Part shown: piece by piece, positions 8,831-32,929 of the stretch
Numbering within the stretch: the stretch's first letter is position 1
How the letters are laid out: every line of letters begins with the position of its first letter
Assembly: GCA_022823775.1 (NCBI GenBank)
Contig: JAJEHI010000173.1
Location: 1-49,938 of the forward strand
DNA: 49,938 nucleotides
DNA from: Defluviicoccus sp.
Lineage (GTDB): Bacteria; Pseudomonadota; Alphaproteobacteria; MPNO01
Direction: 5' to 3'
Made by a program: the position numbers and the translations under genes
The notes under the pieces: model-generated
Seen by the model: the letters and a program-made list of their open reading frames with translations, nothing else
What the model was told of the DNA's origin: nothing
Databases searched by the model: none

Positions 8831-9658
8831 TTATTGCCGATGCTGCATCACCCGATTCTCGACATAAAGGATGATGAGGTACATCACCGTCGAGATCACG
8901 GCGAGGATGGTGATCGCGGTCATCACCAGGTTCATCGCGAAAATCTGGCTGCCGTAGATGATCAGGTGGCCGAGCCCCGCCTTGGCCGCCTGGAACTCGC
9001 CGACGATGACGCCTACCAAGGCCAGCCCGACATTGATCTTCAGCGCGGCGATCATTACCGGGACATTGCCCGGCAGCACCACCTTGCGCAGGATCTGCGC
9101 CTTGCTGGCGCCGAAAGTGCGGATCAGCTTGATCTTGTTGGGGTCGGATTCGCGGAACCCCGAATAGACCATCAGGATGGTGATGAACAGCGCGATGGCG
9201 ACGGCCATGGCGTAGATCGAGGCCTCGTCGCCGAGCCAGATATAGAAGATCGGCACCAGGGCGATCTTGGGCAGCGCGTTGGCCACGACCATGAACGGAT
9301 CGACGACACGGTAGAGGAATTCCCACCACCAGAGCGCCATGGCGATCGCTACCCCCATCACCATGGAGATCGCGAAGCCGACGACGGTTTCCACCAGGGT
9401 GATCCAGGTGTGGAACAGGATGTTGTTGTCCTCCGCCCCGATCATCTCGACGAAAGCCGGCCAGATCGCGGACGGGTAGCTGGTCAGCATCGGGTTCACC
9501 CAATGCGCCCGCGGCGCGATCTCCCAGACCAGCACGAAGGCGAGCAGGGCCAGCGCCTGGCAAACCAGGATCAGCCGCCGCCGGATGCGCACCCGGCGCA
9601 GGAACGCCGTGTACATCGCGCTCGGCGCGGAGCGGGACTCGCGGTCATCCGCCGACAT
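8831..9658 (-). CDS. ABC transporter permease, NitT/TauT type (system 2)
   Basis: A 275-residue inner-membrane protein with about six helices. The EAA-type loop is seen at RTFGASKAQILRKVVLPGN, preceded by ANALPKIALVPIFYIWLG, the usual SsuC/TauC pattern. The ATG at 9658 starts inside the end of the ATPase gene (14-bp overlap), so the two are translationally coupled. Unlike system 1, only one permease is present, presumably acting as a homodimer. It is the last gene of this minus-strand operon; no clear terminator is visible behind it. Confidence 0.88.
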   Translation of the reverse strand: MSADDRESRSAPSAMYTAFLRRVRIRRRLILVCQALALLAFVLVWEIAPRAHWVNPMLTSYPSAIWPAFVEMIGAEDNNILFHTWITLVETVVGFAISMVMGVAIAMALWWWEFLYRVVDPFMVVANALPKIALVPIFYIWLGDEASIYAMAVAIALFITILMVYSGFRESDPNKIKLIRTFGASKAQILRKVVLPGNVPVMIAALKINVGLALVGVIVGEFQAAKAGLGHLIIYGSQIFAMNLVMTAITILAVISTVMYLIILYVENRVMQHRQ

Positions 9659-10445
9659 GAATCTCCAGCTCCCCCCAGATCTGGTTGAAGTAGTCGCGGA
9701 ACTCGGGCTTGTTGCGCGCCTCGAAGGGGGTCGGCCGCCCGGCGCCGGCATCGGCGAAGCGGATTTCGTGCTCCGCCTTCACGAAGCCAGGCCGCTTGCT
9801 CATCACCACCACTCGGTCGGCCATGCTGACCGCTTCGGAAATGTCATGGGTGACCAGGATCACCGTCTTGCCCTCTCGGCGCAGGATCTCCCCCACCTCG
9901 TCGGCGAGCGCGAGGCGGGTCTGGAAGTCGAGCGCCGAGAACGGCTCGTCGAGCAACAGGATATCGGGCTCGGTACACAGCGTGCGGGCAAGCGCGGCGC
10001 GCTGACGCATCCCGCCCGACAGCTGGTGCGGGTAATGTTCGGTGAATTCGCCGAGACCGTAGCGGCGCAGCAATTCCAGCGCCCGGTCGCGCGCGCGCGC
10101 CATCTCGAGACCCTGGATCTCCGGTCCGATCAGGACGTTCTGCAGGATCGAGCGCCACTCGAACAGATAGTCCTGCTGTAGCATGTAGCCGCAGACCGGC
10201 GAGGGCCCGCGGACGGGCCTGCCGTCCACCAGCACCTCGCCGGCGGTGGGCTCCAGGATCCCGGCGATCAGCGAGAGCAGCGTCGACTTGCCGCAGCCGC
10301 TCTGCCCGACGATGCCGACGAATTCGCCCGGCCGGACCCTTAACGACAGCCCGCGCACCGCCTCCGTCTCACCCTCCAGGGTGAAGTAGCGGAGATGGAT
10401 GTCGCGCAGCTCGACCTTCGGGGTCGTCCCGTCCGCTTGCGCCAT
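9645..10445 (-). CDS. ABC transporter ATP-binding protein, NitT/TauT type (system 2)
   Basis: A 266-residue ATPase: Walker A GQSGCGKST, Q-loop MLQQDYLFEWRS, signature LSGGMRQRAALARTL, Walker B ILLLDEPFSALD, H-loop VTHDISEAV. The Phe-Glu-Trp-Arg after the Q-loop and the C-terminal segment with FEARNKPEFRDYFNQIW are typical of the NitT/TauT branch. It powers import together with the binding protein encoded 11 nt upstream and the permease overlapping its 3' end. Confidence 0.9.
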   Translation of the reverse strand: MAQADGTTPKVELRDIHLRYFTLEGETEAVRGLSLRVRPGEFVGIVGQSGCGKSTLLSLIAGILEPTAGEVLVDGRPVRGPSPVCGYMLQQDYLFEWRSILQNVLIGPEIQGLEMARARDRALELLRRYGLGEFTEHYPHQLSGGMRQRAALARTLCTEPDILLLDEPFSALDFQTRLALADEVGEILRREGKTVILVTHDISEAVSMADRVVVMSKRPGFVKAEHEIRFADAGAGRPTPFEARNKPEFRDYFNQIWGELEIHVGG

Positions 10446-10456
10446 GCCGCGCCCGT

Positions 10457-11470
10457 CTACATCATCGACTTCTTCGCGGCCTCCGAGAACTTCGTCGTCA
10501 CCACCCGCTCATAGGTGACCCGCTTGTCGGCCTTCAGAACGCCGCCCTCGACCAGAATGTCCTGCAGGGCGGAGATCGCCTGCGGATGGGTGGTCGGGTC
10601 GGTCTTCCAGATGCCGAACTTGCGGTAGCGCGTGACCGACGCGGCGATGTCGCCGAGCTCGACCTTGGGGAACCACTTGGTGATCGCCTTGGCCGCGGTC
10701 TCGGCATCGGCCTTCTGGATCCATTTCTGCGCCTTGTGGATGGCGTTGGCCCATCCCTGGATGATCTTCGGATTCTTCTCGATGTAGCTGTCCGTCGCCA
10801 TGAACACGGTGTAGTCGACCGGGCCGACCTCCTTGCCGACCGAGGCGACGGGATAGGCGATTCCCTGGCGCGAGAGCTTGCTCACATCGGGTTCGAAGAA
10901 CACCGAGAAGCTCGCCTTGTTGACCATCCAGGCACCGACGCGGGCGGGGATGGCAATGTTGGTGACGTGGTCGATATCCTTCTTCGGGCTGATGCCGTGC
11001 TTCTTCATGGCGTATTCGAGAAACAGGCCCGGGGTCGAGCCGGGGCGCCAGCCCATTACCTTCTTGCCCTTGATCATCGACCACTTGAACTGATCCATCG
11101 TCATCTTCTCGCGCGACATCAGGAACAGCCCGTCGGTGGCGGTGATGGCGGTGAACATCTTGGTCTTCTCGGGCGAGGCGCCGTTCTCCACATAGATCGC
11201 GGTTTCCGGCCCCTGGAGGACGATGTCGACCTTGCCCGACAGTAGCATCGCCGTGCCCTTGTCGCCGCCCCAGGCCGTGGTCATGTCGACCTCGATCCCC
11301 TGATCGCGGAAATAGCCGTTGGCGATGGCAACGTATTTCGGCAGGTAGAAGACCGAGCGAACGACCTCGGCGTACTTCACCTTGGTCGTCTTCTGGGCCC
11401 GGGCCTCGCCGACCCATGCCAGCGCGACCGCGACCGCGGCAACGCAAGATGCCGTCCGAACGAATTCCAT
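10457..11470 (-). CDS. ABC transporter substrate-binding protein, NitT/TauT type (system 2)
   Basis: A 337-residue protein with a signal peptide (MEFVRTASCVAAVAVALAWVGEARA-Q, cleavage near 25) and an SsuA/NMT1-type binding fold: VRSVFYLPKYVAIANGYFRDQGIEV, LLSGKVDIVLQGPETAIYV, GKKVMGWRPGSTPGLFLEYAMKKHG. The frame is open further upstream, but ATG 11470 has a strong GGGAGGT 4-5 nt before it and the signal peptide begins there. It is the first gene of the system 2 operon. The ligand is unknown. Confidence 0.9.
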   Translation of the reverse strand: MEFVRTASCVAAVAVALAWVGEARAQKTTKVKYAEVVRSVFYLPKYVAIANGYFRDQGIEVDMTTAWGGDKGTAMLLSGKVDIVLQGPETAIYVENGASPEKTKMFTAITATDGLFLMSREKMTMDQFKWSMIKGKKVMGWRPGSTPGLFLEYAMKKHGISPKKDIDHVTNIAIPARVGAWMVNKASFSVFFEPDVSKLSRQGIAYPVASVGKEVGPVDYTVFMATDSYIEKNPKIIQGWANAIHKAQKWIQKADAETAAKAITKWFPKVELGDIAASVTRYRKFGIWKTDPTTHPQAISALQDILVEGGVLKADKRVTYERVVTTKFSEAAKKSMM

Positions 11471-11980: not shown

Positions 11981-13312
11981 TTATGGTCGATGGACGCAGC
12001 CCACGTCCTCGCGCGTCCGCGTGCAGGTGTCGATGATGGAATAGACCAGCTTGCGGCAGGTATGCGCGAGGTCGGGAGCGCAGGTAACCCCCATGCCGCC
12101 CAAGCCCTCCCGAAATTCGTCCGGGGTCGTTTCCGGCACGCTGACCCAACCGGTACGCGCGGTCGGAATGCCGAGATTGCGGATGGTCGAGATGTCGGTC
12201 TGGCCGCTGGTCCGACGCGGCGTCTCATGAGGTCGCCCTTCCACCGCTTCCCACGCGACGATCGCGGACCGGACGATCCAGCTTTCCGGGTCGGTGCTCG
12301 CCCCGGGGATCGAGGCGGTCATCTCCCAGTCGAGATCGAAATCGGGATGGTTCGCGCGGATGTCGTCGATCGCCGCGCCGAACTGGGCGGCGACGTCCGC
12401 GGGCGGCGTCCGCGGATTGCAGCGGATGTCGAGATAGATTTCGGTCGTCGCGGAGGGAAAGGCCACCCGGTCGGGCCAGCCGCCCTGCACCGCCGCCACC
12501 CAGCCTTGCGGCATCACCTGACCCGAGCTGTTGCGCTCCGTATAGCCAGGCAGCCACGCCTCAAGCTCGGCGATGACGGAAGCCGCCGGCACGATCGAAC
12601 TCCGGAAGCCCGGAACGCCTCGGGCGATACCGGCATAACCCATTGTCCCCCCAACCGAAACCTTGAACCAGCAAAGGCCGGGCTCCTCGTGATAGACCGC
12701 GTTACCGGGCTTCATCACCAGCGCGAAATCGGCGCAGACGCCTCGGGTGAGGAGGTGGAAGACTCCGTCGGACAGCCCTCGGTTTCCCGGCACCGCAAGA
12801 TCCACCGGCATGCCGCCGCCGGCGAACCCGACGAGGAGATCTCCAGTGAGCGGGATACCCGCCTCGGAAACGACACGGGCGGCCTCCGTCTGAGTGGCGA
12901 CCATTGCCTTGGGATTGGCTGCCCCGAGCCCGATGATCAGCCCGTCGCGTACCACCGGGTCGGGAACCATGTCCTGCCGGAGGCCCGTGCCGACCCACGG
13001 AATGTCGGTTTCCGGATCGGCCTCGAGATGGGTGTCGATCGGCGCGTAGAGCAGCAGGCTCGGCCCGCCGCCGCTTCCCCGCAGCCGCGCGGCCGCGTTG
13101 CCCGACGCCTCGCCCATCGGCTGGTACCAGGACTCGAGACCCGCCTCCGAGAGCCGCTCCACCATGAATTCGCTGGCCGCGCGCTCGCGCCCGGTGGGGC
13201 TGTGGATCCCGGTGAGTTCGAACGCCAGTCGGTGGATGCGCTCCTCGTCGATCAGGGATACGGCCCTATCGAACCACGCCCGCCGGTCCGACCCGAGCTG
13301 GGGGTGCGTCAT
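11981..13312 (-). CDS. M20-like protein with all metal ligands replaced (predicted non-catalytic)
   Basis: A 443-residue protein with the M20 peptidase/ArgE fold order. Active-site positions have changed when compared with its neighbour at 13454: motif 1 is LLLYAPIDTHLEAD (family xHxDxx, His to Pro), the bridging-Asp motif is GLGAANPKAM (Asp to Pro), the Glu-Glu motif is GFAGGGMP, and the next ligand position is VMKPGN (Glu to Lys). The C-terminal His is also not evident. I infer a pseudo-enzyme or a partner subunit. ATG 13312 follows AGGAGG at 7-nt spacing, a strong start. It is divergent from the second M20 gene across about 140 bp. Confidence 0.8.
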   Translation of the reverse strand: MTHPQLGSDRRAWFDRAVSLIDEERIHRLAFELTGIHSPTGRERAASEFMVERLSEAGLESWYQPMGEASGNAAARLRGSGGGPSLLLYAPIDTHLEADPETDIPWVGTGLRQDMVPDPVVRDGLIIGLGAANPKAMVATQTEAARVVSEAGIPLTGDLLVGFAGGGMPVDLAVPGNRGLSDGVFHLLTRGVCADFALVMKPGNAVYHEEPGLCWFKVSVGGTMGYAGIARGVPGFRSSIVPAASVIAELEAWLPGYTERNSSGQVMPQGWVAAVQGGWPDRVAFPSATTEIYLDIRCNPRTPPADVAAQFGAAIDDIRANHPDFDLDWEMTASIPGASTDPESWIVRSAIVAWEAVEGRPHETPRRTSGQTDISTIRNLGIPTARTGWVSVPETTPDEFREGLGGMGVTCAPDLAHTCRKLVYSIIDTCTRTREDVGCVHRP

Positions 13313-13453
13313 TTCTCGCCTCCTAGTCCGATCTGGTCGATCGATCCGAGGCAAAACTACCCTGCCGCCGGGACTAGTGCGAACAGCCACTGGCGATCCC
13401 GGGCTGGCGGGTTCAAGATGTTCCACGAAACATCAATCCTGAAGGATCGACAG

Positions 13454-14776
13454 GTGACAGCGTCGGCGCCCGCGGATCGGATCATCGAAATCGTCGACGG
13501 GCAGAGGCAGGAGCTGGTCGACCTTTGCCTCGGTCTCGGCAATGCGCGCGATTACGCCGGGGACGAAATCGCGGTCGCTCAAGCGGTCGAAGCCTGGCTC
13601 GCCGAGGCGGGAATCGAGACCCGGCTGCAGCGGATCGACGAGGCCAGCGCCAACGCCGTCGGGATCCTGCGCGGGACGGGCGATCGGTCGAGCGGTGCCC
13701 GGTCGCTGATCCTCAACGCTCACATGGACACCCAGGGCGCGGCGCCCGCCGCCGGGGCGGAAGAGGAGCAGCGGCTGCGCGGCGCGCATGAGCAGGACGG
13801 GTTCCTGTTCGGCAACGGGCTCGCCAACGACAAAGCCCAGCTCGCCGCCCAGATGATCGCCATGCGCGCCATCGTCCGGGCAGGCTTGCGGCTGCACGAG
13901 ACCCTCTACGTCACCGGAGTCGCCCAGGAAACCGGCGCTCCGCCGGAGCGCGGCGAGGAGATCGAAGGCTGGTCCGGGATCGGGCCACGCATGAGCCAGG
14001 TGCGGGAAGGCTACGGCGCGCGCTGGCTGGTCGAGCACGGCATCGTTGCCGACTACGCTCTTGTCGGCGAGATCACCGACTTCAAGCTCGGTCTGGGCCA
14101 GGCTGGATATTTGCGGCTCAGGATCGCCGTGCCCGGCCATTTGCGATACACGCCCCTCCTGATCCGCGGCGAAGCCCCCACCGACAATCCCAACCCCTTC
14201 GAGCGCGCCGCCCATGCGATCCGGGCGCTCGAGTCCTGGGCGACGGATTACGAGCGAACCGACGCGCTCGACTTCGGACGGGGAACGATCGTGCCCCGAG
14301 CCCAGGTTTGCGAGGTGGCGGCGGGCGGCCTCCCGTTCACCGAAACTTCCGACAGCTGCAATTTGTTCTTCGACGTGCGTCTCGTGCCCGGCGCGCGCCC
14401 GGCGGAGATCGTCGACCGGGTGCGCCAAGCGCTTGGCGCGACGGGGCTGGATTGCGAGATTTCGCCTTACGACTATCGGCGGGGCTATCTCGCCGAGGAC
14501 GCGGACCCGTTGGGCGAGGCGCTCGACCGTGCGCACCGGCGGGTCTTCGACGAGGAGATGGCGTTCGCCGAGTCCGGTCCGATCAGCACCTGGCGGGACA
14601 CCAACGCGTTCAACGAGGCCGGAATCCCCGCCGTCTGCTACGGCGCGCCCGCGCGTTCGGCGCTTCTCGGCGGCGGGCTCGCCGGGGATCGGCGGCCGAT
14701 GGCGGTCGACGATCTCATGGCCCTGTCGAAGGTTTACGCGCTGACCGCGCTCGATCTGTGCGGCGTAGTATCATAA
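13454..14776 (+). CDS. M20/ArgE-family metallohydrolase
   Basis: A 440-residue protein (452 if ATG 13418 is used). Metal-site motifs are largely kept: LNAHMDTQ (His, Asp), GNGLANDKAQ (bridging Asp), GVAQETGAPP (Glu ligand, but the catalytic-base Glu position holds Gln), ALVGEITD (Glu ligand). The usual C-terminal His is not obvious. The family cleaves N-acyl or peptide bonds with two zinc ions in the cytoplasm. GTG 13454 is preferred because GAAGGA lies 7-8 nt upstream. It is 25 nt before the C-C hydrolase gene, so it probably belongs to the same transcript as the aromatic cluster. Confidence 0.8.
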   Translation: MTASAPADRIIEIVDGQRQELVDLCLGLGNARDYAGDEIAVAQAVEAWLAEAGIETRLQRIDEASANAVGILRGTGDRSSGARSLILNAHMDTQGAAPAAGAEEEQRLRGAHEQDGFLFGNGLANDKAQLAAQMIAMRAIVRAGLRLHETLYVTGVAQETGAPPERGEEIEGWSGIGPRMSQVREGYGARWLVEHGIVADYALVGEITDFKLGLGQAGYLRLRIAVPGHLRYTPLLIRGEAPTDNPNPFERAAHAIRALESWATDYERTDALDFGRGTIVPRAQVCEVAAGGLPFTETSDSCNLFFDVRLVPGARPAEIVDRVRQALGATGLDCEISPYDYRRGYLAEDADPLGEALDRAHRRVFDEEMAFAESGPISTWRDTNAFNEAGIPAVCYGAPARSALLGGGLAGDRRPMAVDDLMALSKVYALTALDLCGVVS

Positions 14777-14801
14777 GCGACCAGCGGAAGGAGAGCGGCT
14801 C

Positions 14802-15638
14802 ATGGCCCCACGCGGAGACCTGTCCGACAGCCAATTCGTGACCGCAGCCGGTGTGCGGGTGCACTACAAGGAGGTAGGCGAAGGCTACCCGGTCATCTGC
14901 TTGCACGGTGCGGGGCCCGGCGCGAACAGCGAGAGCAACTTCCGGCGCAATGTCGGCGCGCTCTCCGAACATTTTCGCGCGGTACTGGTCGATATGCCGC
15001 AATTCGGCAAGAGCGAGAAGGTGCCGATCGAGGAGGGCCGGCTCGGCTTCAACGCGACGGTGATGGACGCGTTCATGACGGAGACAGGCATCGAACGGGC
15101 GCATTACATCGGCAACTCGATGGGCGGGCAGGTGGCGCTGAAACTCGCCATCGACAAGCCGGAGCGGGTGGACCGGCTGGTGGTGCTCGGTCCCGGAGCG
15201 ATCAACAACCCGATCTTCGTGCCGAGCCCGCTTGAGGGCATCAAGCTGATCGCCGATTACTACAAGGGCGAGGGGCCGACCCGGGAGAAGCTGCGCAAGC
15301 TCCTCGATACGTTGGTCTACGACTCCTCCTTCCTCACCGACGAGGTCGTCGAGGAACGATTCCAGACGACGATCGAGCCCGACAATCTCGAACTCTTCGC
15401 CAAGCGTCAGGGCCGGTACAATAAGGAAGACCTGTACGGGAATCTCAGCAGTATCGAGTCCCCCACGCTGATCGTCTGGGGCATGGACGATCGGTTCGGC
15501 GCGCTCGATGTAGGACTTCAGATGACCCGGCTGATGAAGCGGGCCCAGATGCACATTTTCGCGCGATGCGGCCATTGGGCACAGGTCGAACACGCCGAAG
15601 CGTTCAATCGTCTGGTGGTCGGCTTCCTGTCGGATTGA
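14802..15638 (+). CDS. Alpha/beta hydrolase of the meta-cleavage product (C-C bond) hydrolase type
   Basis: A 278-residue protein with the features that set off BphD/HsaD/CarC-type hydrolases from other alpha/beta hydrolases: HGAGPGANSESNFRRN (oxyanion segment), GNSMGG (nucleophile Ser), WGMDDRFGALDVGL (Asp) and CGHWAQVEHAEAFNRLV (His). These enzymes hydrolyse the 2-hydroxy-6-oxo-dienoate made by ring-cleaving dioxygenases. AAGGAG lies 9 nt before the ATG. The three genes downstream encode a Rieske ring-hydroxylating oxygenase and a LigAB-type ring-cleavage dioxygenase, so the biochemical context matches. Confidence 0.85.
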   Translation: MAPRGDLSDSQFVTAAGVRVHYKEVGEGYPVICLHGAGPGANSESNFRRNVGALSEHFRAVLVDMPQFGKSEKVPIEEGRLGFNATVMDAFMTETGIERAHYIGNSMGGQVALKLAIDKPERVDRLVVLGPGAINNPIFVPSPLEGIKLIADYYKGEGPTREKLRKLLDTLVYDSSFLTDEVVEERFQTTIEPDNLELFAKRQGRYNKEDLYGNLSSIESPTLIVWGMDDRFGALDVGLQMTRLMKRAQMHIFARCGHWAQVEHAEAFNRLVVGFLSD

Positions 15639-15649
15639 AGGGGGTACGC

Positions 15650-16834
15650 ATGGCGGACAGCGAAACGGACGTGGCGACCGAGCCGGAAGCGGATTTCGAC
15701 AACAAGCCCTGGGCGCCCTATCTGAAGGCGGCGCTGGGCTTCCGCAATCACTGGTACCCCGCCTGCTTCTCGAAAGAGATCGCGGAAGGGGAATGCCTGG
15801 GGCTGGAGCTCCTCGCCGAACGGGTGCTGTTCAAGCGTATCGGCGGTCGCGTCTACGCGATTGAGGACCGTTGCGCCCATCGCGGGGTTCCGTTTTCGGC
15901 GCGGCCCGAATGCTACTCGGCCAACACGGTGACCTGCTGGTATCACGGCTTCACCTACGATCTCAGGGACGGCAGGCTGGTGGCGATCGTCACCGACCCC
16001 GAGAGTCCGCTGATCGGCAAGCTCGCGCTCAGGACCTATCATGTCGAGGAACGGCAGAACGTCGTCTTCGTCTTCATCGGCGACGGCGACCCGCCGCCGC
16101 TGGTCGAGGACGTACAACCCGGCTTTCTCGACGACGACCTCTATATCGCGCCCGACGGCGACCGGGGCGTGGTCGGGAGCAACTGGCGCCTCGCGGCGGA
16201 GAACGGGGTCGATGCGTCGCACATTTACATCCACCGCAACTCGCGGCTACTGAGCGCGCTCGGCCGCGCCGTTCCGCTGGCGAGCTATTTCGTCACCCGC
16301 GAGGACATGGTGGTGGATACGCCCGGGGGGCCGAAGGGCGTCGTCAAGGGGGCGGGCCGCAAGATCTCGGTCTGGGAGACCGAGATCGAGGGCGAGAGAG
16401 TTGCCGCCCGGACCATGCCCGATGAAGACCGCGCGGGCTCCAGGATCACCGATACGTCGCTGTGGATGCCCTGCGGGTTGAAGGTTGATCCGTTCCCGGC
16501 CCGCGACATAACCCATTTCGAATGGTACGTTCCGATCGACGAGCACTCGCATTATTACATGGTCACCTGGGGCAAGCGGGTATCCGACCCGGTCGAGCAG
16601 GAACGCTTCGCTCACGAGGTCGACACGTATTGGCGCGAAATGGTGGTCGACCGCTTCAACGACGAGGACGTGTTCGCCCGCGAGGCGATGGAGCGGTTCT
16701 ACAGCGAAGAGGACGGCTGGAATCGCGAGCGGCTTTACCGCCCGGACGTGGTGGTCACCGAATGGCGCAAGCTCGCCAGCAAGCACAATCGCGGCATCCA
16801 GGGCCGCGCGTCGGCCGGGGGGCGCGCTCCGTGA
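15650..16834 (+). CDS. carAa: Rieske non-heme iron oxygenase, carbazole 1,9a-dioxygenase (CarAa)-like
   Basis: A 394-residue terminal oxygenase subunit. Rieske [2Fe-2S] ligands are CAHRGVPFS (Cys-X-His) and CWYHGFTY (Cys-X2-His). The mononuclear iron site is NGVDASHIYIHRNS (Asp, His-X3-His), and a second acidic ligand is in FNDEDVFAREAM. Long stretches follow carbazole dioxygenase CarAa as I remember it: LGFRNHWYPACFSKEI, FEWYVPIDEHSHYY, ASKHNRGIQ. CarAa attacks the angular carbon next to nitrogen in carbazole; the substrate here may differ. No ferredoxin or reductase gene is present in the window. The start at 15650 follows GAAGGGGG, and the stop overlaps the next gene (GTGA). Confidence 0.85.
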   Translation: MADSETDVATEPEADFDNKPWAPYLKAALGFRNHWYPACFSKEIAEGECLGLELLAERVLFKRIGGRVYAIEDRCAHRGVPFSARPECYSANTVTCWYHGFTYDLRDGRLVAIVTDPESPLIGKLALRTYHVEERQNVVFVFIGDGDPPPLVEDVQPGFLDDDLYIAPDGDRGVVGSNWRLAAENGVDASHIYIHRNSRLLSALGRAVPLASYFVTREDMVVDTPGGPKGVVKGAGRKISVWETEIEGERVAARTMPDEDRAGSRITDTSLWMPCGLKVDPFPARDITHFEWYVPIDEHSHYYMVTWGKRVSDPVEQERFAHEVDTYWREMVVDRFNDEDVFAREAMERFYSEEDGWNRERLYRPDVVVTEWRKLASKHNRGIQGRASAGGRAP

Positions 16835-17112
16835 CCGCGCCGCCGCCCGCTTCGGCGCGCTACTGGCTCAACCGCGCCCTGTTCGATCTCGGCGACCCGG
16901 CATGCAGGCGGGAATTCGGCGCGGACCGGGCCGCATGGCTCGACCGTTACCCGCTGGACGCGGGCGCGCGCGCCGCCCTCGAGGCACCCGGATGGCGGGT
17001 GCTGCTCGACCGCGGGGCCCTCCCCAACCTCGTCTTCAAGTACTTCATGCTGAGCGGACACCCGCCCGGGAAATTCGCCGCCATCGCCGGGGAGACGGAC
17101 GAGCATGGCTGA
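16831..17112 (+). CDS. Extradiol dioxygenase small subunit, LigA/CarBa type
   Basis: A 93-residue protein resembling the alpha-helical small subunit of class III extradiol dioxygenases: a YWLNRALFDL start, RYPLDAGARAALEAPGWRVLLDRG, then LPNLVFKYFMLSGHPPGKFAAIAG. It has no metal ligands of its own; it caps the active site of the LigB-type partner. It starts with GTG overlapping the oxygenase stop (GTGA) and overlaps the LigB-type gene by 8 bp, so the three are translated together. Confidence 0.82.
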   Translation: MTAPPPASARYWLNRALFDLGDPACRREFGADRAAWLDRYPLDAGARAALEAPGWRVLLDRGALPNLVFKYFMLSGHPPGKFAAIAGETDEHG

Positions 17113-17932
17113 GCTCTGTCTGGGGCTGGCGACCTCGCACCTCGCCCATATAGTCAACGCGCGGGATGCCGGCGACTCGGCCAAGGTCGCCGCGTTCGAC
17201 GCCGGCTACGCCCGGCTTGCCGCGGCGCTCCGCGAGGCTGCTCCGGACGCCTGCCTCATCGTCTCCGCCGAGCACGTCAACAAGTTCTTCATCGACAACA
17301 TGCCGGCCTTCTGCATGGGCCTGTTCGAGAGCTTCTCCGGTCCGGTCGAGAGCAAGGCGCGCGACGTCGGCTATCCCTGGCGCGAAGTGCCGAGCGACCC
17401 CGGGCTCGCCCGCTACCTCATCGAACGCGGCCTCGACGAGGGCGTGGACTGGGCGGTGTCGGAGTTCTGGGAGGTCGATCACGGGATGATGGTTCCGCTG
17501 CACAAGCTGGACCCGGAGGGCCGGGTGCCGATGATCCCGGTATTCGTCAACTGCGCCTCGGCGCCGATGCCCTCGACCCGGCGGTGCTTCGCCGTGGGGC
17601 GCTGGCTCGCCGAAGCGATCGCCGACTGGCCGGGCTCCCGGCGGGTCGGCATCGTTGCGACCGGTGGGCTGTCCCATTCGGTCGGGACCCTGGACCAGGG
17701 CCGCATAGATGTCGCCTTCGACGAATGGTTCCTCGACCGGCTGTGCGCCGGAGACGGCGAGGCGCTCGCCGGGCTGGGCGATGCCGAGATGATGGAAGCC
17801 GGCAGCTCGACGGGCGAAGTCCGGTCGTGGATCGTCCTCGCGGGCGCCTTCGCCGGGCGCCGCGCGGAACGGGTGTTCTACGCGCCCATCGAGGGCTTCG
17901 ATACCGGCTGCGCGCAGGCGGTCTACCGCTGA
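17105..17932 (+). CDS. Extradiol ring-cleavage dioxygenase catalytic subunit, LigB/CarBb type
   Basis: A 275-residue class III extradiol dioxygenase. Probable Fe(II) ligands and base are visible: GLATSHLAHIV (first His), VSAEHVNKFFIDN (second His), ATGGLSHSVG (acid-base His) and STGEVRSWIVLAGA (Glu ligand near 240). It opens a catecholic ring meta to the hydroxyls. With the LigA-type subunit, the Rieske oxygenase and the C-C hydrolase it forms a complete upper pathway: hydroxylate, cleave, hydrolyse. The gene ends 8 bp before the convergent ABC ATPase gene. Confidence 0.87.
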   Translation: MAELCLGLATSHLAHIVNARDAGDSAKVAAFDAGYARLAAALREAAPDACLIVSAEHVNKFFIDNMPAFCMGLFESFSGPVESKARDVGYPWREVPSDPGLARYLIERGLDEGVDWAVSEFWEVDHGMMVPLHKLDPEGRVPMIPVFVNCASAPMPSTRRCFAVGRWLAEAIADWPGSRRVGIVATGGLSHSVGTLDQGRIDVAFDEWFLDRLCAGDGEALAGLGDAEMMEAGSSTGEVRSWIVLAGAFAGRRAERVFYAPIEGFDTGCAQAVYR

Positions 17933-17940
17933 GGCGCCGC

Positions 17941-19089
17941 TCAGTCGGCGACCAGGGTACAGGCTTCGCTGCGCAACTCGATGCCGACGGCATCGCCGGC
18001 GGCGAAGCGGCGTCCGCCCCGATCCGAACGCGCGCGAAGCAGGACGTCGCGCAGCCGGACGAAATAGACCACCGCGTCGCCCAGGAACTGTACCGAGTCG
18101 ATCGCACCGGACCAGGCATCGTCGATTCCGGTTTCGGCGCGCGGAACCACCTGCACGCCTTCGGGCCGGAGCGCGGCCGAGACGCGGTCGCCCGGCTTGA
18201 ACGGCACCCGGCCCACAGCATCGAAGCGGGCGCCCCATACGGTCTCCACACCGAACCGGTACAGGTCTGCCTCCCTGTTTTCGACCGAACGCACCCGGGC
18301 CTCGATCAGGTTGGCGGCGCCGAGAAAAGAGGCGACGAATCGCGTGCGCGGATAGTCGTAAAGCTCCTCCGGCGTGCCGCGCTGCTCGATCGCGCCATCC
18401 CGCATGACGGCGAGCGAGGACGACATCGCAAGTGCTTCGGCCTGGTCGTGGGTGACATAGATCGAGGTCACGCCAAGCCGTTCCTGGATGCGGGTAAGCT
18501 CCACCCGCAGGTCTTCGCGTAACCGCGTGTCCAGGTTCGACAACGGCTCGTCCAGGAGCAGAACCGGCGGCTCCATCACCAGTGCGCGGGCCACGGCGAG
18601 GCGCTGCTGTTGCCCACCGGAAAGCAGCGTCGCCTTGCGTTTCGCGAGATGGGCGATCTGGATCACGTCCAGCAGCTCGGCGACACGGCGGTCTATGTCC
18701 GCCCGGCCGTAGGTTCCCTTTCGACCGCGCACCGTCAACGGGTAGGCGACGTTCTCGGAGACATCCATGTGCGGCCAGATCGCGTAGGACTGAAAGACCA
18801 TGCCGAGGTCACGCCGGTTGGGTGGAACGTTGATGCCCCTGGCGGACGAAAAGAGTATCCGTTCGCCCAGCCGGATCTCGCCGCCGTCGGGGATTTCGAG
18901 CCCCGCGATGCAGCGGAGCAGGGTGGTCTTGCCGCAGCCCGACGGGCCGAGCAGGGTGAAGAACGCGCCGTCCTCGATGGCGAGACTCACCCCGTCGAGC
19001 GCGGGCCTGTCGTCTTCGCCGCGCCGCCGCGCCAGGCGGTGGTAGTCCTTGCGCAGGTCTTCGACGACCAGCTTCATGCCCGCACTCAT
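17941..19089 (-). CDS. ABC transporter ATP-binding protein, Fe3+/polyamine type (system 3)
   Basis: A protein of 382 residues. ATPase domain in about 1-245: Walker A GPSGCGKTT, Q-loop VFQSYAIWPHMD, signature LSGGQQQRLAVARAL, Walker B VLLLDEPLSNLD, H-loop VTHDQAEAL. A C-terminal TOBE-type regulatory region follows (about 280-382, RVSAALRPEGVQVV and later strands), as in FbpC and PotA. The start at 19089 overlaps the permease stop (ATGA). A methionine four codons later is an alternative. Together with the double permease and the Tat-type binding protein upstream it makes a complete importer. Confidence 0.88.
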   Translation of the reverse strand: MSAGMKLVVEDLRKDYHRLARRRGEDDRPALDGVSLAIEDGAFFTLLGPSGCGKTTLLRCIAGLEIPDGGEIRLGERILFSSARGINVPPNRRDLGMVFQSYAIWPHMDVSENVAYPLTVRGRKGTYGRADIDRRVAELLDVIQIAHLAKRKATLLSGGQQQRLAVARALVMEPPVLLLDEPLSNLDTRLREDLRVELTRIQERLGVTSIYVTHDQAEALAMSSSLAVMRDGAIEQRGTPEELYDYPRTRFVASFLGAANLIEARVRSVENREADLYRFGVETVWGARFDAVGRVPFKPGDRVSAALRPEGVQVVPRAETGIDDAWSGAIDSVQFLGDAVVYFVRLRDVLLRARSDRGGRRFAAGDAVGIELRSEACTLVAD

Positions 19090-20855
19090 CGGATCACCGC
19101 CGCGCGGTCGCCGATCCAGGTGACGAGCAGCGCCATTGCCATGGCAATGACCACGGTGATCACGCCGACCACCGCGGCGACTTCGAGGCGCCCGGACGTG
19201 GCGTATACGAACATCAGCAGCGGCAGGGTGAGGGTGTCGGGCGTCGACACCAGCACGGTCGCGCTGATGTCCTTGATCGCCGACATGAAGGACAACACGA
19301 ACACGGTCGCGACGACGGGGGCGACCAGCGGCGCGGTGATACGGAGGACGGTCTCCAGCCTTCCGGCCCCGCTCATCAGCGAGGACTCTTCGAGCTCGCG
19401 CGAAACCTGGCCGATCGAGGCCTCGAACAGATGGGTCGCGAAGGGCAGGCCCTGGACGATCAGCACCGTGACCAGGGCGACCGCCGTCCCGTAAAAGATC
19501 GTCAGCCCCGGCGCGTTGAGAAAGATCACCAGGAACGCCGTCCCGAGCAGAACGCCCGGCAGCGCCCAAGGCATCCATATCGCGAGCGAGAGCGCGCCCT
19601 TTCCCGGAAACGCGTTGCGGGCGATGAACCAGGCGAGGCCGAGATAGATCGTCGTACCGGCGATGGCCACCGCCGCGCCGGTCATCAGCGACTGGTTGAC
19701 CGCACGTAGGAACTCATCGCCTTCCAGCACCGTCGCCCAATGCCCGAAGGTCCATGGATCGGGCAAGTGGAAAAAGCCGAAAAGCCGGCTGAACGAACTC
19801 AGCAGCACCAACAGGAAGGGAAGCCCGATGGTCACCGCGACGGCCAAGAACAGGAAGGCCGAGACCGCGTAGGAGCCCTGCGTGCGCTGACGCGGCTGAA
19901 GCTTCGCGCCCCTGCCGGTCAGCGTCGCCGCCATACTGGCCCGCTGCAACCATACCCGGTAAACGAGGACCAGCACGAACATGATCGCGAGAAAGAAGGA
20001 ACTCAGCGCCATCGACTGCGGCGCGTCCGGCGGTATCACCCTCAGCAGGTGATAGATGCGCGTGGAATAGACTAGGATGTCGGCCGGCAGGCCGAGGAGC
20101 TGCTCGACCTCGAAGGCCTCAAGCGACCGGATCGTGCCGGCGATGAAAGCAGTCAGCAGGGTCGGCGCGATCAGCGGGACCGTCACCCGTCGAAGAGTCG
20201 TCAGCGTCCCGGCGCCGGACATGGTCGAGGCCTCCTCGAACGAGGCATCGATAAGCCGCTGGGCCGGCTCGATCAGGATCACCATGATCGGGATGGTGGA
20301 CAGGGTGATGTGCACCCAGGTGATTCCGCCCAACGAGTAGATGTCGAACAGCGGCCCGCTCACGAAGGGGAGCTTTTCGAGCCAGACGTTGACCAGCCCG
20401 AAATTGGGGTCGAGCAGCAGAATCCAGCCGAGGGTCGCCGGCAGAATCGGCAGGAAAAAGCCGACCCAGAGCGAGAACATGATGGCGCGCTTGCCGAACA
20501 CGTCGTTACGGGCGAGGTACCAGGCGATGAAGAAGGCGATCAGCATCGCCGTCGGCACGCGCAGGCTGAGAACGAACGACGTCACGATGGAGTCGATCGT
20601 GTGCTTGCTCTCCAGCGCACGCGCCCAGGGTTCCAGGGTCGGGACGAACGCGTTGATCGGCTCGCCCTCGCTGAACCCGCCGAGGACGATCAGCAGCACC
20701 GGCAGGATGCAGATCGCAGCCACCGCCGCCAGGCAGAGCCAGCCGAAGACGCGCAGCAGGGTCTCGGCGGCTTGGCCGGTTCTCACCGCGGCACGGTCGC
20801 CTTCGGACGTCGCCGGTTCGGCCGAAGCGACGCCCGTCCGTCCGTTAAGAATCAC
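19086..20855 (-). CDS. ABC transporter permease, fused two-domain, Fe3+/polyamine type (system 3)
   Basis: A 589-residue membrane protein consisting of two permease halves in one chain, each with an EAA-type loop: EEASTMSGAGTLTTLRRVTV in the first half and EESSLMSGAGRLETVLRITA in the second. The same organisation is known in FbpB and ThiP. About twelve hydrophobic segments are visible. It starts with GTG at 20855, inside the end of the decarboxylase gene (11-bp overlap), and overlaps the ATPase gene by 4 bp. Tight coupling to the decarboxylase genes suggests that cargo and decarboxylase substrate belong to one pathway (inference). Confidence 0.88.
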   Translation of the reverse strand: MILNGRTGVASAEPATSEGDRAAVRTGQAAETLLRVFGWLCLAAVAAICILPVLLIVLGGFSEGEPINAFVPTLEPWARALESKHTIDSIVTSFVLSLRVPTAMLIAFFIAWYLARNDVFGKRAIMFSLWVGFFLPILPATLGWILLLDPNFGLVNVWLEKLPFVSGPLFDIYSLGGITWVHITLSTIPIMVILIEPAQRLIDASFEEASTMSGAGTLTTLRRVTVPLIAPTLLTAFIAGTIRSLEAFEVEQLLGLPADILVYSTRIYHLLRVIPPDAPQSMALSSFFLAIMFVLVLVYRVWLQRASMAATLTGRGAKLQPRQRTQGSYAVSAFLFLAVAVTIGLPFLLVLLSSFSRLFGFFHLPDPWTFGHWATVLEGDEFLRAVNQSLMTGAAVAIAGTTIYLGLAWFIARNAFPGKGALSLAIWMPWALPGVLLGTAFLVIFLNAPGLTIFYGTAVALVTVLIVQGLPFATHLFEASIGQVSRELEESSLMSGAGRLETVLRITAPLVAPVVATVFVLSFMSAIKDISATVLVSTPDTLTLPLLMFVYATSGRLEVAAVVGVITVVIAMAMALLVTWIGDRAAVIR

Positions 20856-21432
20856 CGCTCAATTCCGCGCGCATCAGCACCGCGCAGTCGAGCTGGTGAC
20901 GCCTGGGAACGGGCCGGTCGGGCGAGGACGGCATGTCGCGGCTGGTGTCGGTCTTGCAAACCACGAGATGGGGACCCGGCGACTCCATCGCCGTGCCCAT
21001 CCTGTCGGCGACCTCGTTGGGGTCCGCCGCGCTGTGGACGTGGTCAGCGTCCCAGCCACTGGCGAGCGCGAGCCCGGCGATGTCCGCACCGCTGCCGGTC
21101 GCGGTCGGCTCGGTTCCTTCGCCCGTGCCCCAGACCTCGTTGTCGAGCACGGCAACGGCGAGGTTCTCGGGACGCATACGCCAGATTGTCGACAGCACCG
21201 CCGCGCCCGCGAAGAACGACCCGTCGCCCTCGATGGCGAGCACTTTGCGGTCCGGCCGCGCCAGCGCGATGCCGAGCGCGATCGCCGTCGCGTAGCCCAT
21301 GTCCATGTTGTAGATGGTCGCCGGCGCGTCGGCCCTTGCGTAGAGAAGACCGGAGTTCACACCGGGGCCGGTGATTGCCGCTGCGTCGCCGCGCGCCGCG
21401 GCGACGATGTCCATCGCCTCGATGCGGTCCAT
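20845..21432 (-). CDS. TPP-dependent 2-oxoacid decarboxylase, PP-domain subunit (ComE-like)
   Basis: A 195-residue protein with the pyrophosphate-binding half of thiamine-diphosphate enzymes: IEGDGSFFAGAAVLSTIWRM followed by LAVAVLDNEVWGTGE (GDG ... N, the Mg-TPP motif). It matches the beta subunit of sulfopyruvate and phosphonopyruvate decarboxylases, which are split into two short chains like this. ATG 21432 shares one base with the stop of the PYR-domain gene (TGATG), so the two are made in equal amounts. The actual 2-oxo acid is unknown. Confidence 0.8.
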   Translation of the reverse strand: MDRIEAMDIVAAARGDAAAITGPGVNSGLLYARADAPATIYNMDMGYATAIALGIALARPDRKVLAIEGDGSFFAGAAVLSTIWRMRPENLAVAVLDNEVWGTGEGTEPTATGSGADIAGLALASGWDADHVHSAADPNEVADRMGTAMESPGPHLVVCKTDTSRDMPSSPDRPVPRRHQLDCAVLMRAELSGDS

Positions 21433-21947
21433 CAGCACGCTCCCCGCATGACGTGGGGAGGAAGCAGAAGCCCGAAGCATGTGCGTTGGCCGCGCGCGGT
21501 CTGGACCGCCCGGAACATCTGGTCTTCCAACCCGTCGAAGCCGGTCGCGATCTCGAAGGGTATGCCGAGCCCCCTGAAGACGCCGTCGGACAGGAGCCGC
21601 GTGGCGCCGTGATAGTCCATCGGCTCGCCGCCGCCCGCGGTATGGCTCGCGAGGATCGTGACTGGCGTCCGCTGGACCTGGGCGCGAGCGAGGATCAGAC
21701 CGCTGTATCCGAGGCCCGAGGCCTCCATCATGCACACCGGATTACGCCCCCCGAGATCGAGTCCGACGGCAACAGCGATGCCTTCGTCCTCGCGCGCGCA
21801 GGGCACCATCAGCACCTCCCCGCTGGCACGGAAGGCCCGGATGGTGCCGAACAACACGCTGTCCGGCAGATAGACGCAGGCGTCCACGCCGGCGCGCAGG
21901 GCACCCCGCAGCAAAGCGCCCGCCGCGCCCTCGGCATCCCCCGTCAC
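21432..21947 (-). CDS. TPP-dependent 2-oxoacid decarboxylase, PYR-domain subunit (ComD-like)
   Basis: A 171-residue protein with the pyrimidine-binding half of a TPP enzyme: VDACVYLPDSVLFGTIRAF, then CAREDEGIAVAVGLDLGG with the Glu that activates the cofactor, and NPVCMMEASGLGYSGLIL. The split PYR/PP arrangement is that of sulfopyruvate decarboxylase (ComDE) and phosphonopyruvate decarboxylase. The start is GTG at 21947, 22 nt behind the binding-protein stop. There is no sulfolactate or phosphoenolpyruvate mutase gene nearby to choose between substrates. Confidence 0.78.
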   Translation of the reverse strand: MTGDAEGAAGALLRGALRAGVDACVYLPDSVLFGTIRAFRASGEVLMVPCAREDEGIAVAVGLDLGGRNPVCMMEASGLGYSGLILARAQVQRTPVTILASHTAGGGEPMDYHGATRLLSDGVFRGLGIPFEIATGFDGLEDQMFRAVQTARGQRTCFGLLLPPHVMRGAC

Positions 21948-21969
21948 ACGCCGTGCCTCGGGCGGACGG

Positions 21970-23112
21970 TCAACGTTTGCCGAGCGCGTCGGTGATCGCC
22001 CTCACCACTACGTGCCGGCCGAGGTAACGCTTCTCGTTATATGCCTCGAAGTACTTCACGCCCGGCCGCGGGACCAGGTAGCTCGGGATGCCGGTCTTCA
22101 CATCCTTGCGCCTGCTGGTGGCGAGCATGGTCTTCTCATAGACCTCCTGGCCGGGCCGGCTGACATACCAGTTGATGAAGACCTGGGCCGCATTGGGGTG
22201 CGGCACGTTCCTGGCCTGCTTGAGGACGGAGAAGCCGCCGGTCACGTAGCCCGGCGCGTCCTCGGGCAGCACCACGGCAAGGTTCTTGATGCCTTCCCTG
22301 CGGAACTTCTCGACGAAAAACTGGATGGACGCGAAGGCGATGGGCCTCGTGCCGCGCACGACCTCCTCCACCACCCCGCGGTTGCTGGTGGTGAATTTCG
22401 CCTGCTGCCCGAGATAGAACTCCTTCACGAACTCGATGCCAAAGGTGTTGTAGAGCCAGTTGGTCGCGCCCTGGCCGGGGCCTGGGCTGCGCGGGTCGTG
22501 CGAAATCATCTTGCCGCGGAACTCCGGCTTGAGGATGTCCTTCCACATCTTGATCTTGCCGGGGTCGACGATGTCCTTGTTGACCAGCAGCCAGCCGAAC
22601 ACCCATTCGGCGCCCTGCAACAGATATTGGTCGTCGTCGTCCATGAACTTGAGCTTGCCGTCGCGGAAGTTCTCCGGCCCGACGCCGGGAAGAATGAGCT
22701 GCGGCCGCACGGGGTTGAGATAACCCCCGGGCTTCATCTTGACGAGCTCGCGTCCGCCGCCGAGCATGATGTCCAGCGTCATCTTGTCGGCCATGGCCTC
22801 CGCCTCGAAGCGCGAGGACAGGTCGGACGGACGGCCGCCGAAGAATTTGAGCTCGATACCGGTGTCGCGCTTGAACGCCGCCGGCATGGTGCGCGTCAGC
22901 GCCGGAAAGCCGGCGACGGTGACTTGGCCTTCCTTACGTGCCTCGGCCAGGATGCGGCCCCACTCGTCCGGCGCCCCCGCCTGCCAGTCGGCCGACGCCG
23001 CGGCATGGCCCACGGGTGCCCGGGCCACGGATGCGGCACCCGTCGCCGCCGCGAGGACGGCCGAAGAACCGAGGCCGCTCAGAACGGTTCGCCGCGTGAA
23101 ACGCGTGTTCAT
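21970..23112 (-). CDS. Extracellular solute-binding protein, Fe3+/polyamine type (system 3), Tat-like signal
   Basis: A 380-residue protein. The N-terminus MNTRFTRRTVLSGLGSSAVL has a twin-arginine-like motif (RRTVLSG) and a long hydrophobic stretch up to about residue 38. The mature part matches family 1 iron/spermidine-like binding proteins: WGRILAEARKEGQVTVAG, AFKRDTGIELKFFGG, GWLLVNKDIVDPGKI, FINWYVSRPGQEVYE. ATG 23112 has GGGAGGTG 5 nt upstream, which decides the start over a longer open frame. Whether the ligand is iron or an organic acid cannot be read; the flanking oxidoreductase and decarboxylase favour an organic substrate. Confidence 0.88.
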   Translation of the reverse strand: MNTRFTRRTVLSGLGSSAVLAAATGAASVARAPVGHAAASADWQAGAPDEWGRILAEARKEGQVTVAGFPALTRTMPAAFKRDTGIELKFFGGRPSDLSSRFEAEAMADKMTLDIMLGGGRELVKMKPGGYLNPVRPQLILPGVGPENFRDGKLKFMDDDDQYLLQGAEWVFGWLLVNKDIVDPGKIKMWKDILKPEFRGKMISHDPRSPGPGQGATNWLYNTFGIEFVKEFYLGQQAKFTTSNRGVVEEVVRGTRPIAFASIQFFVEKFRREGIKNLAVVLPEDAPGYVTGGFSVLKQARNVPHPNAAQVFINWYVSRPGQEVYEKTMLATSRRKDVKTGIPSYLVPRPGVKYFEAYNEKRYLGRHVVVRAITDALGKR

Positions 23113-23211
23113 GCCACACCTCCCCTGCTTCATTTTGGCGATCGCTTTGTCGCCCCTATTTCCGGTTCGAGTATGAGTGCGATTCAGGGCCCGGTGCAAG
23201 GAGGGCCGGCG

Positions 23212-25527: not shown

Positions 25528-25528
25528 C

Positions 25529-26035
25529 TCACCCTCGCGTCGCCATTACGATTGCCTCGACAATCTTCACGTAACCGGAGCACCGGCAGATATTGCCCGA
25601 CACAGCCACGCGGATCTCTTCCACCGTGGGCTCCGGGTTCTCGTTCAGCAGCGCCCGGGCGGCGATCGCCAACCCCGGCGTACAGAACCCGCACTGGATT
25701 GCGCCCGATTCGACCAAGGCACGCTGCACCGGGTCCAGAATGCCGTCCTGCGCGAGCCCCTCAACGGTGACGATCTCCAAACCGGTGCAGTTGACCGAGA
25801 GCGACAGACAGGCACGCACCGCCTGACCGTCGACCATCACGGTACAGGTACCGCAGACACCTTGGTTGCAACCGCGCTTCGCACCCGTCAGTCCGAACCG
25901 GACACGGAGGGTATCGAGCAGCGTCTCGTCGGTCAGGATGGGCGCCTCCCGGGTCGCGCCATTGACCGTTAACGCGATATTAGGTCTATCCTCCACCACC
26001 GATGAATTATTGTTCGCTCGCGTAAGGGTGTCCAT
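25529..26035 (-). CDS. Molybdenum hydroxylase [2Fe-2S] small subunit
   Basis: A 168-residue electron-transfer subunit. N-terminal plant-type cluster ligands are in GCNQGVCGTCTVMVDG plus the downstream Cys of RACLSLS. The C-terminal helical cluster has CGFCTPG and GNICRCSGY. Typical length and order for CoxS/IorA-type proteins. ATG 26035 is the likely start; the frame also opens from a GTG at 26059. It is the first gene of the minus-strand operon down to 17941. Confidence 0.9.
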   Translation of the reverse strand: MDTLTRANNNSSVVEDRPNIALTVNGATREAPILTDETLLDTLRVRFGLTGAKRGCNQGVCGTCTVMVDGQAVRACLSLSVNCTGLEIVTVEGLAQDGILDPVQRALVESGAIQCGFCTPGLAIAARALLNENPEPTVEEIRVAVSGNICRCSGYVKIVEAIVMATRG

Positions 26036-31264: not shown

Positions 31265-31288
31265 CCTGCGCGGGGAAGCCTGGAAACG

Positions 31289-32044
31289 ATGAAACCGATC
31301 GGAAAACTTCTCAACGTCGCCCTGTCGTTGATCGGCGTGACCGTCGTCTGGTGGCTGGTCGCGACATCGGGTCTGATCAGTCAGGAATTGTTTCCGACGC
31401 CGCACGCCGTGTTCATCGCCGCGCTGGAACTCTACGAAGACGGCATCCTGTTCAGCGACCTCGCGGTGTCGTTGGGACGGGCGGCTGTTGGCTTCCTGAT
31501 CGGCGCCAGCCTCGGCATCCTGGTCGGGCTGCTCACCGCACGGACCCGGCTGTTCGCATACGCGCTGGGGCCGTTTCTCAATCTCCTGAGACCCATACCC
31601 GCGATTGCCCTGGTGCCGGTCGCGATCGTCTGGTTCGGCATCGGCGAAGGTTCGAAATACTTCGTCATCGCTTATACGGTGTTTCTCGCGGTGTGGCTCA
31701 ACACCCATCACGGGACCGCGCATGTCGCGCTGACCTACATACGCGCCGCGCGCTCTCTCGGAGCGCGGCGCACGCGCGAGTTTTTCGAGGTGATCATCCC
31801 GGCGGCCGCGCCTCACATCGTCGTCGGGCTGCGGCTGGGCGCGGCGCTGGCGTTTCTTTCCCTGGTGGCGGCGGAACTGTCGGGCGCGTCCGCCGGTATC
31901 GGGTTCAGGCTGCAGGACGCGCGCGACTATGTCCGTACCGACCGGATGTTCGTCGGACTGATCGAGCTCGGCATTCTCGGCGCCCTGCTCGACCAGTTCT
32001 TCGTGGTCGTCGGCAACAAGCTGGTTCACTGGGAGCAGATGTGA
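31289..32044 (+). CDS. ABC transporter permease, NitT/TauT type (system 4)
   Basis: A 251-residue membrane protein with about six helices, LFPTPHAVFIAALELYEDG after helix 1, NLLRPIPAIALVPVAIVWFG, and EAA-type loop RSLGARRTREFFEVIIPAAA. It lies between the first amidohydrolase and the ATPase gene, whose GTG start overlaps this stop (GTGA). Confidence 0.9.
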   Translation: MKPIGKLLNVALSLIGVTVVWWLVATSGLISQELFPTPHAVFIAALELYEDGILFSDLAVSLGRAAVGFLIGASLGILVGLLTARTRLFAYALGPFLNLLRPIPAIALVPVAIVWFGIGEGSKYFVIAYTVFLAVWLNTHHGTAHVALTYIRAARSLGARRTREFFEVIIPAAAPHIVVGLRLGAALAFLSLVAAELSGASAGIGFRLQDARDYVRTDRMFVGLIELGILGALLDQFFVVVGNKLVHWEQM

Positions 32045-32859: not shown

Positions 32860-32929
32860 GGAGCGGCCCGGAATGCAGGGCCGTGGCGAGAGTGCGTAAC
32901 CTGGACACCAAGAACCGAGGAGACGGAAG

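Follow-up and report, generated by a model that had tools for sequence, protein, structure and literature searches.

A CarAa-family Rieske oxygenase operon facing decarboxylase and molybdenum hydroxylase genes in an alphaproteobacterial genome: a candidate route for an N-heteroaromatic carboxylic acid

Introduction

The lumichrome (lum) pathway of Nocardioides simplex has been reconstituted and runs through LumK/LumL, LumJ, LumA-D and LumE in that order: decarboxylation by a two-subunit thiamine diphosphate (ThDP) enzyme is followed by a hydroxylase of the xanthine oxidase type, then a Rieske oxygenase and last an extradiol enzyme (PMC12746152). The putative metallohydrolase LumF was expressed in that study, no essential role was found for it, and the authors expect variants of the pathway (PMC12746152). 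In the quinoline route of Rhodococcus gordoniae, 2,8-dihydroxyquinoline yields 8-hydroxycoumarin and NH4+, then 2,3-dihydroxyphenylpropionate, which undergoes meta-cleavage (PMC9029321). 5-nitroanthranilate aminohydrolase (5NAA-A) strips an aromatic amino group hydrolytically (PMC10306065). Carbazole (car) operons such as those of pCAR1 (carAaBaBbCAcAd) and pCAR3 (carAaBaBbCAc) bring together CarAa, CarBa, CarBb and CarC. Here we describe a locus that has parts in common with these systems. It lies on a 49,938-nucleotide contig (JAJEHI010000173.1, hereafter the window) of a 4.8 Mb alphaproteobacterial genome, Defluviicoccus sp. (G000), and consists of an operon with a CarAa-family Rieske oxygenase and, facing it, an operon with ThDP decarboxylase-like and molybdenum (Mo) hydroxylase genes.

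Two facing operons as a candidate catabolic unit

The forward-strand operon (13418-17932) is nearly gapless. A preliminary description of this DNA had reported hydrolase, CarAa-family oxygenase, LigA- and LigB-type genes tightly packed and overlapping between 14802 and 17932, with an M20 gene ahead of them, and both statements are borne out, the Pfam matches being far above chance. The M20 gene (M20p, 13418-14776, starting at ATG 13418 or at a GTG about 36 bp later) ends 25 bp before the hydrolase gene (14802-15638); 11 bp further on comes the oxygenase gene (15650-16834), whose stop overlaps the GTG start of LigA (16831-17112, 93 aa), and LigA overlaps LigB (17105-17932) by 8 bp. Overlooked at that time were a second, divergent M20 gene (M20m, 11981-13312, reverse strand) and the reverse-strand operon (17941-26035), which lies 8 bp past LigB and encodes a Mo hydroxylase (small and large subunits), a ThDP enzyme in two halves, and an ABC-type binding protein, permease and ATPase.

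We propose that the forward operon, M20m, an ABC importer of the nitrate/taurine (NMT1/SsuA) type (8831-11470, reverse strand) and the facing operon may work together as a single unit for the catabolism of a benzo-fused N-heteroaromatic carboxylic acid, of the quinoline, quinoxaline or a related type, a reading for which we regard the case as evenly balanced. Between 15650 and 26035 the window holds the full lum-type set of two-subunit ThDP enzyme, Mo hydroxylase, Rieske oxygenase and extradiol enzyme. A locus from a Bradyrhizobiaceae metagenome-assembled genome (MAG; L049, CANKHJ010000013.1) is collinear, with oxygenase, reductase, M20m, NMT1-type ABC importer, ThDP beta and alpha subunits and FAD, [2Fe-2S] and Mo subunits in succession, and with LigB and hydrolase genes nearby; it differs from the window in having an oxygenase of the OMO (2-oxo-1,2-dihydroquinoline 8-monooxygenase) side of the family, a reductase, and two Mo hydroxylases with FAD subunits. 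Within the genus, all four genomes that carry the oxygenase also carry the ThDP alpha subunit (90-99%) and the Mo large subunit (72-100%), while the one genome that lacks the oxygenase lacks both orthologues, an absence that is not certain given its completeness of 89%. A lake MAG locus (L014) keeps M20m, hydrolase, oxygenase and a facing ABC transporter; it has in addition another PF11723 oxygenase together with a reductase and an enzyme resembling BphC, and no LigAB was seen.

Several observations weigh against a single unit. The operons face each other, no reductase is linked to them, and joint regulation does not follow from this layout. L014 has neither ThDP nor Mo genes across the 21 kb seen. 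The ThDP pair is remote from LumK/LumL (E 8e-6 and 8e-4), both pairs falling under the same NCBIfam cut-offs, and its family is found in 114 of 385 alphaproteobacterial genomes, with seven copies in G000, often has no Rieske gene nearby, and stood in mixed surroundings in the ten contexts that we read. No FAD subunit adjoins the Mo hydroxylase, and the genome has about 45 such enzymes in all. Orthologues of M20p in another genus sit in an unrelated neighbourhood, and the lum route leads to a pyrone and does without a C-C hydrolase.

The sequences themselves establish the gene identities, the intact ligands of the oxygenase, its clade and the conserved associations; for the proposed unit we infer every reaction step, the order of the steps, the point at which M20p acts, and the substrate. 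The substrate would be imported by an ABC transporter, after which the two-subunit ThDP enzyme would remove the carboxylate adjoining the ring nitrogen, as LumK/LumL do, and the Mo hydroxylase would hydroxylate the freed carbon to give a ring lactam. The CarAa/OMO-type oxygenase could then attack the benzo ring beside the nitrogen, by angular dioxygenation or 8-hydroxylation, and M20p would hydrolytically remove the aryl nitrogen, with M20m as its partner or as a second hydrolase. Extradiol cleavage by LigAB and C-C hydrolysis by the BphD/MhpC-like hydrolase would complete the route, with electrons supplied by a reductase encoded elsewhere. If this is correct, the decarboxylase/Mo-hydroxylase/Rieske logic first shown for lumichrome in 2025 recurs in a CarAa/LigAB-based alphaproteobacterial form, and the M20m/LumF family supplies candidate genes for the nitrogen-removing step of quinoline-type pathways, to which, to our knowledge, no gene has been assigned.

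The oxygenase and its ring-cleavage partners

The oxygenase belongs to PF11723, the CarAa/OMO family (236.5 bits against a cut-off of 24.4; 4e-70), with a Rieske domain (59.8 bits) N-terminal to the PF11723 catalytic domain. Its start is most likely at 15650, preferred because the ATG at 15566 falls inside the hydrolase gene. A PDB search matches it to CarAa at 1e-111; it is 46-47% identical to CarAa proteins and 36% identical to an OMO proxy (L094). The Rieske ligands (C75, H77, C96 and H99), the iron ligands (H191, H195 and D340) and the bridging D188 are invariant across ten aligned sequences, and the catalytic residues are intact. The iron motif NG-D-SHIYIH, previously described as typical of the angular branch, is present as ENGVDASHIYIH, but it is no marker of that branch because the OMO-type counterpart ENGFDNAHILVH carries identical iron ligands.

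In a maximum-likelihood tree of 81 rows, an OMO side and a CarAa side of the family separate with 100/100 support, and the window oxygenase stands on the latter, outside the OMO clade. It belongs to an 11-row clade (100/99) whose other members come from lake and soil, from Rhodococcus jostii and from gammaproteobacterial MAGs; the sister group, of 28 rows (97/94), contains the CarAa of pCAR1, pCAR3 and Acinetobacter. The oxygenase had been described as CarAa-like and of the carbazole type; the phylogeny puts it outside the characterised CarAa clade, although close to it. At I262, F275 and Q282 of CarAa (CarAa numbering), which we take to be pocket-lining positions, the window protein has T, F and H, and its pocket is predicted to be more polar than that of CarAa, a difference that favours the proposed unit.

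The ring-cleavage partners are more distant. The LigB protein, a class III extradiol dioxygenase (PF02900, 2.5e-36), matches LigB of protocatechuate 4,5-dioxygenase at 6e-24 and is 27-30% identical to CarBb-type proteins; the LigA-type small subunit (PF07746, 2.3e-9) is 37% identical to CarBa of pCAR3 over 71 aa. The meta-cleavage product (C-C) hydrolase has the alpha/beta fold of the BphD/MhpC/HsaD type (Abhydrolase_1, 2.7e-28), with matches to BphD (3e-65), MhpC (2e-58), HsaD (about 1e-56) and the CarC-type 1j1i (1e-30); it stays below the cut-offs of the NCBIfam HsaD/BphD models and is 30-31% identical to its Car counterparts. Car proteins are 40-70% identical among themselves, and the window genes do not qualify as CarBaBb and CarC orthologues.

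Two other traits had been singled out in the preliminary description, the gene order and the lack of electron-transfer genes. OMO takes its electrons from a reductase, with no separate ferredoxin involved. The hydrolase does come first, and no CarAc-like ferredoxin was found in the window by tblastn nor any linked reductase, but both traits carry little weight because orders vary among CarAa-type loci (OXY-HYD-LigA-LigB and LigB-HYD-OXY each occur) and carbazole-degrading sphingomonads have their reductase outside the car operon, as found here for pCAR3 and as reported for Sphingomonas XLDN2-5 (PMC2848856). In G000 the two best VanB-type reductase matches (on C97 and C2) both lie at most 3 kb from other Rieske domains, which leaves no reductase that could be singled out as the partner.

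These data bear on the alternative that the forward operon alone is a car-type pathway for an angularly oxygenated biaryl or carbazole-like compound and that the facing operon is an unrelated neighbour, which we consider unlikely. The same four enzyme kinds as CarAa-CarBa-CarBb-CarC, an oxygenase 47% identical to CarAa with its catalytic residues and F275 kept, and a C-C hydrolase that suits such chemistry are all as this alternative would have them, whereas the sister-clade position of the oxygenase, the identities of about 30% for LigB and hydrolase and the missing CarAc-like ferredoxin gene are not. Moreover, the window adds aminohydrolase-like genes, for which the upper car pathway has no use, as well as a ThDP decarboxylase and a Mo hydroxylase, and both in the genus and in L049 the components of the facing operon are found along with such an oxygenase. 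Membership of the car pathway itself was rejected on the tree and on the low identities of the partner genes (27-37%). What remains of the earlier suggestion is a CarAa-family oxygenase in an operon for aromatic meta-cleavage, with an N-heterocycle other than carbazole as the probable substrate.

Some related loci deserve mention. In the lake MAG, the second PF11723 oxygenase, the VanB-type reductase and the BphC-like dioxygenase precede M20m, hydrolase and the window-type oxygenase (L014:4693-9981). Four gammaproteobacterial MAG loci (L016, L018, L019 and L087) carry oxygenases of the window clade, and no ring-cleavage partner was found within them. Three MAGs labelled Klebsiella pneumoniae (L025, L079 and L088) have CarAa- or OMO-type loci whose place is among those of environmental Gammaproteobacteria, and their labels look wrong.

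The facing operon and the lumichrome pathway

Reading inwards from its far end, the facing operon encodes the small [2Fe-2S] subunit of the Mo hydroxylase (25529-26035; Fer2_2, 1.8e-29) and the large subunit (23212-25527), a member of the xanthine dehydrogenase family (MoCoBD_1, 2e-79; MoCoBD_2, 3e-77) that matches the alpha subunit of 4-hydroxybenzoyl-CoA reductase (4-HBCR, 5e-119) and the large subunit of quinoline 2-oxidoreductase (4e-88). An ABC substrate-binding protein (SBP_bac_8/6, 21970-23133) separates these from the ThDP decarboxylase-like alpha subunit (N-terminal TPP domain, 21432-21947; PF02776, 2.3e-6; TIGR03845 sub-cutoff) and beta subunit (C-terminal TPP domain, 20845-21438; PF02775, 8.7e-17; sulfopyruvate/phosphonopyruvate decarboxylase models sub-cutoff), which are 41-46% and 37-43% identical, respectively, to the subunits of L049 and of genome G027. 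As its family is widespread and its contexts mixed, the ThDP subunit was rejected as a specific marker. A double permease (19086-20855) and an ATPase (17941-19089) of the polyamine/aminoethylphosphonate type close the operon; in L014, too, the related oxygenase has relatives of these ABC genes (42-47%) facing it. The NMT1-type importer on the other side of M20m comprises a permease (8831-9658), an ATPase (9645-10445) and a binding protein (10457-11470), with matches to PF00528, PF00005 and PF13379/PF09084.

For comparison we used a Nocardioidaceae genome (G319; L146 and L147) with a cluster of the published lum gene composition, which this composition and the protein sizes suggest to be the lum cluster. 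It shares with the window the two-subunit ThDP decarboxylase, Mo hydroxylase (35% identity between the large subunit and the LumJ-like protein of L146), Rieske oxygenase, extradiol enzyme, an M20-fold protein in the LumF position, and transport genes; the NMT1-type importer is found there as in L049, with weakly similar binding proteins. It differs in that LumC/LumD form an alpha/beta Rieske oxygenase and LumE is of the VOC type. Within the window, the only part of G000 searched for them, none of the genes examined was recognised as LumU (a P450), LumH or LumI. Because the ThDP pair is remote from LumK/LumL and its family is common, the comparison of sequences supports likeness of logic to lum better than orthology.

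A variant of lumichrome/riboflavin catabolism proper, in which a flavin-derived quinoxaline carboxylate is degraded as in N. simplex with a CarAa-type Rieske oxygenase and LigAB replacing LumCD and LumE, seems improbable to us. It would be in keeping with the matching enzyme kinds and chemical order, with the expectation of variants, and with the presence in both of an M20-fold protein, an NMT1-type importer and TRZ/ATZ hydrolases (26% to LumM). The low identity of the ThDP pair, the lack of recognised LumU, LumH and LumI in the window and the presence of a C-C hydrolase, which pyrone-forming chemistry would not need, speak against it.

The proposed unit also resembles the quinoline and OMO systems. 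By its known chemistry, the quinoline route needs an MhpC-type hydrolase. It also needs a nitrogen-removing step, to which we would assign M20m. A true OMO locus (863 bits to 1z01) reads OMO-reductase-M20m-amidase, and another R. gordoniae strain holds a cluster of an OMO-side oxygenase and M20m (L062). The window shares with these systems the PF11723 oxygenase beside M20m, a Mo hydroxylase for a 2-oxo lactam and the expected MhpC-type hydrolase, and differs in its CarAa-side oxygenase (the 36% to L094 given above), its unlinked reductase and the presence of LigAB. A literature search gave nothing useful on M20/Rieske/extradiol clusters or on kynurenate clusters.

M20-fold proteins related to 5-nitroanthranilate aminohydrolase

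In a phmmer search of the PDB, M20p matches 5NAA-A (5k8m) at 6.5e-69 and the next M20 enzyme at 1e-7. It is a full-length homologue, 34% identical over 434 columns, and keeps the H, E, E and WRDTN positions and most positions of the putative metal site; it retains several metal ligands and not the canonical C-terminal His motif of M20 peptidases. M20m falls just under the Pfam cut-off. A profile of its relatives matches 5NAA-A at 4e-44, and its AlphaFold model (pLDDT 88.7) is closer to 5NAA-A (TM 0.83) than to M20 peptidases (about 0.6-0.7). At the positions that we assume to be the canonical M20 metal ligands, M20m and its aligned relatives have changed H to P, D to N, EE to GG and E to K. 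Both proteins belong with 5NAA-A and not with the peptidases, M20p as a probable aromatic aminohydrolase and M20m as a paralogue devoid of the metal ligands. Neither is a 5-nitroanthranilate enzyme proper because R289 of 5NAA-A (PDB 5k8m-5k8p) is replaced in both, and no nitrosalicylate dioxygenase was recognised nearby in the window.

That M20p and M20m are ordinary amidases freeing an aromatic acid from an amino-acid conjugate for the oxygenase and LigAB is improbable as well: Pfam places M20p in Peptidase_M20 and importers flank both sides, but the profile and fold matches to 5NAA-A far exceed those to M20 peptidases and M20m lacks their ligands, on which grounds the peptidase reading, and with it the amide-conjugated substrate suggested earlier, was rejected. 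M20p was also tried as a pathway marker and discarded on the unrelated context of its orthologues in another genus.

In Actinomycetota, Myxococcota, Binatota, Gammaproteobacteria, Burkholderiaceae and Bradyrhizobiaceae, orthologues of M20m (52-60%) come after an oxygenase and a reductase, and a BphC-like dioxygenase and an amidase are often present as well. In G319, what occupies the LumF position (L146:8964-10208) is an M20-fold relative of M20m (30% over 200 aa) and has likewise lost most of the metal ligands. We tentatively suggest, as a possibility we hold less likely than the catabolic unit itself, that M20m represents a distinct M20-fold family, with LumF as a distant member, that removes nitrogen after Rieske oxygenation of N-heterocycles without a canonical metal centre, for example in the conversion of 8-hydroxy-2-oxo-quinoline to 8-hydroxycoumarin, and that the window uses it in a new ThDP/Mo/Rieske/LigAB pathway. 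This family is to us the most interesting piece of the locus, and since the lumichrome study left the role of LumF unassigned, it poses a testable question.

M20m orthologues were seen in about 28 loci, and their place next to CarAa/OMO-type oxygenases is strongly conserved. Elsewhere in G000, even a diverged Rieske gene (L096) adjoins a member of the M20m family.

Genomic context

A near-identical contig and close relatives are found in the assemblies of Defluviicoccus sp. jk18x22, RHO1 and RHO2, which are environmental and, judging from the isolate names, probably sponge-derived. G000 has an extreme repertoire for the oxidation of heterocycles or other aromatics, with 74 Rieske-domain matches, about 45 matches to the Mo-hydroxylase large subunit (E 1e-60 or better) and seven to the ThDP beta profile. 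Mo-hydroxylase numbers are similar in relatives of the genus. An IS-type transposase gene (DUF772/DDE, 26499-27602) lies beside the Mo-hydroxylase end of the facing operon. Further along the window, two TRZ/ATZ-type amidohydrolases (about 26% to LumM) are interleaved with ABC transporter genes (29834-35307), a region that possibly belongs to the same or a sister pathway.

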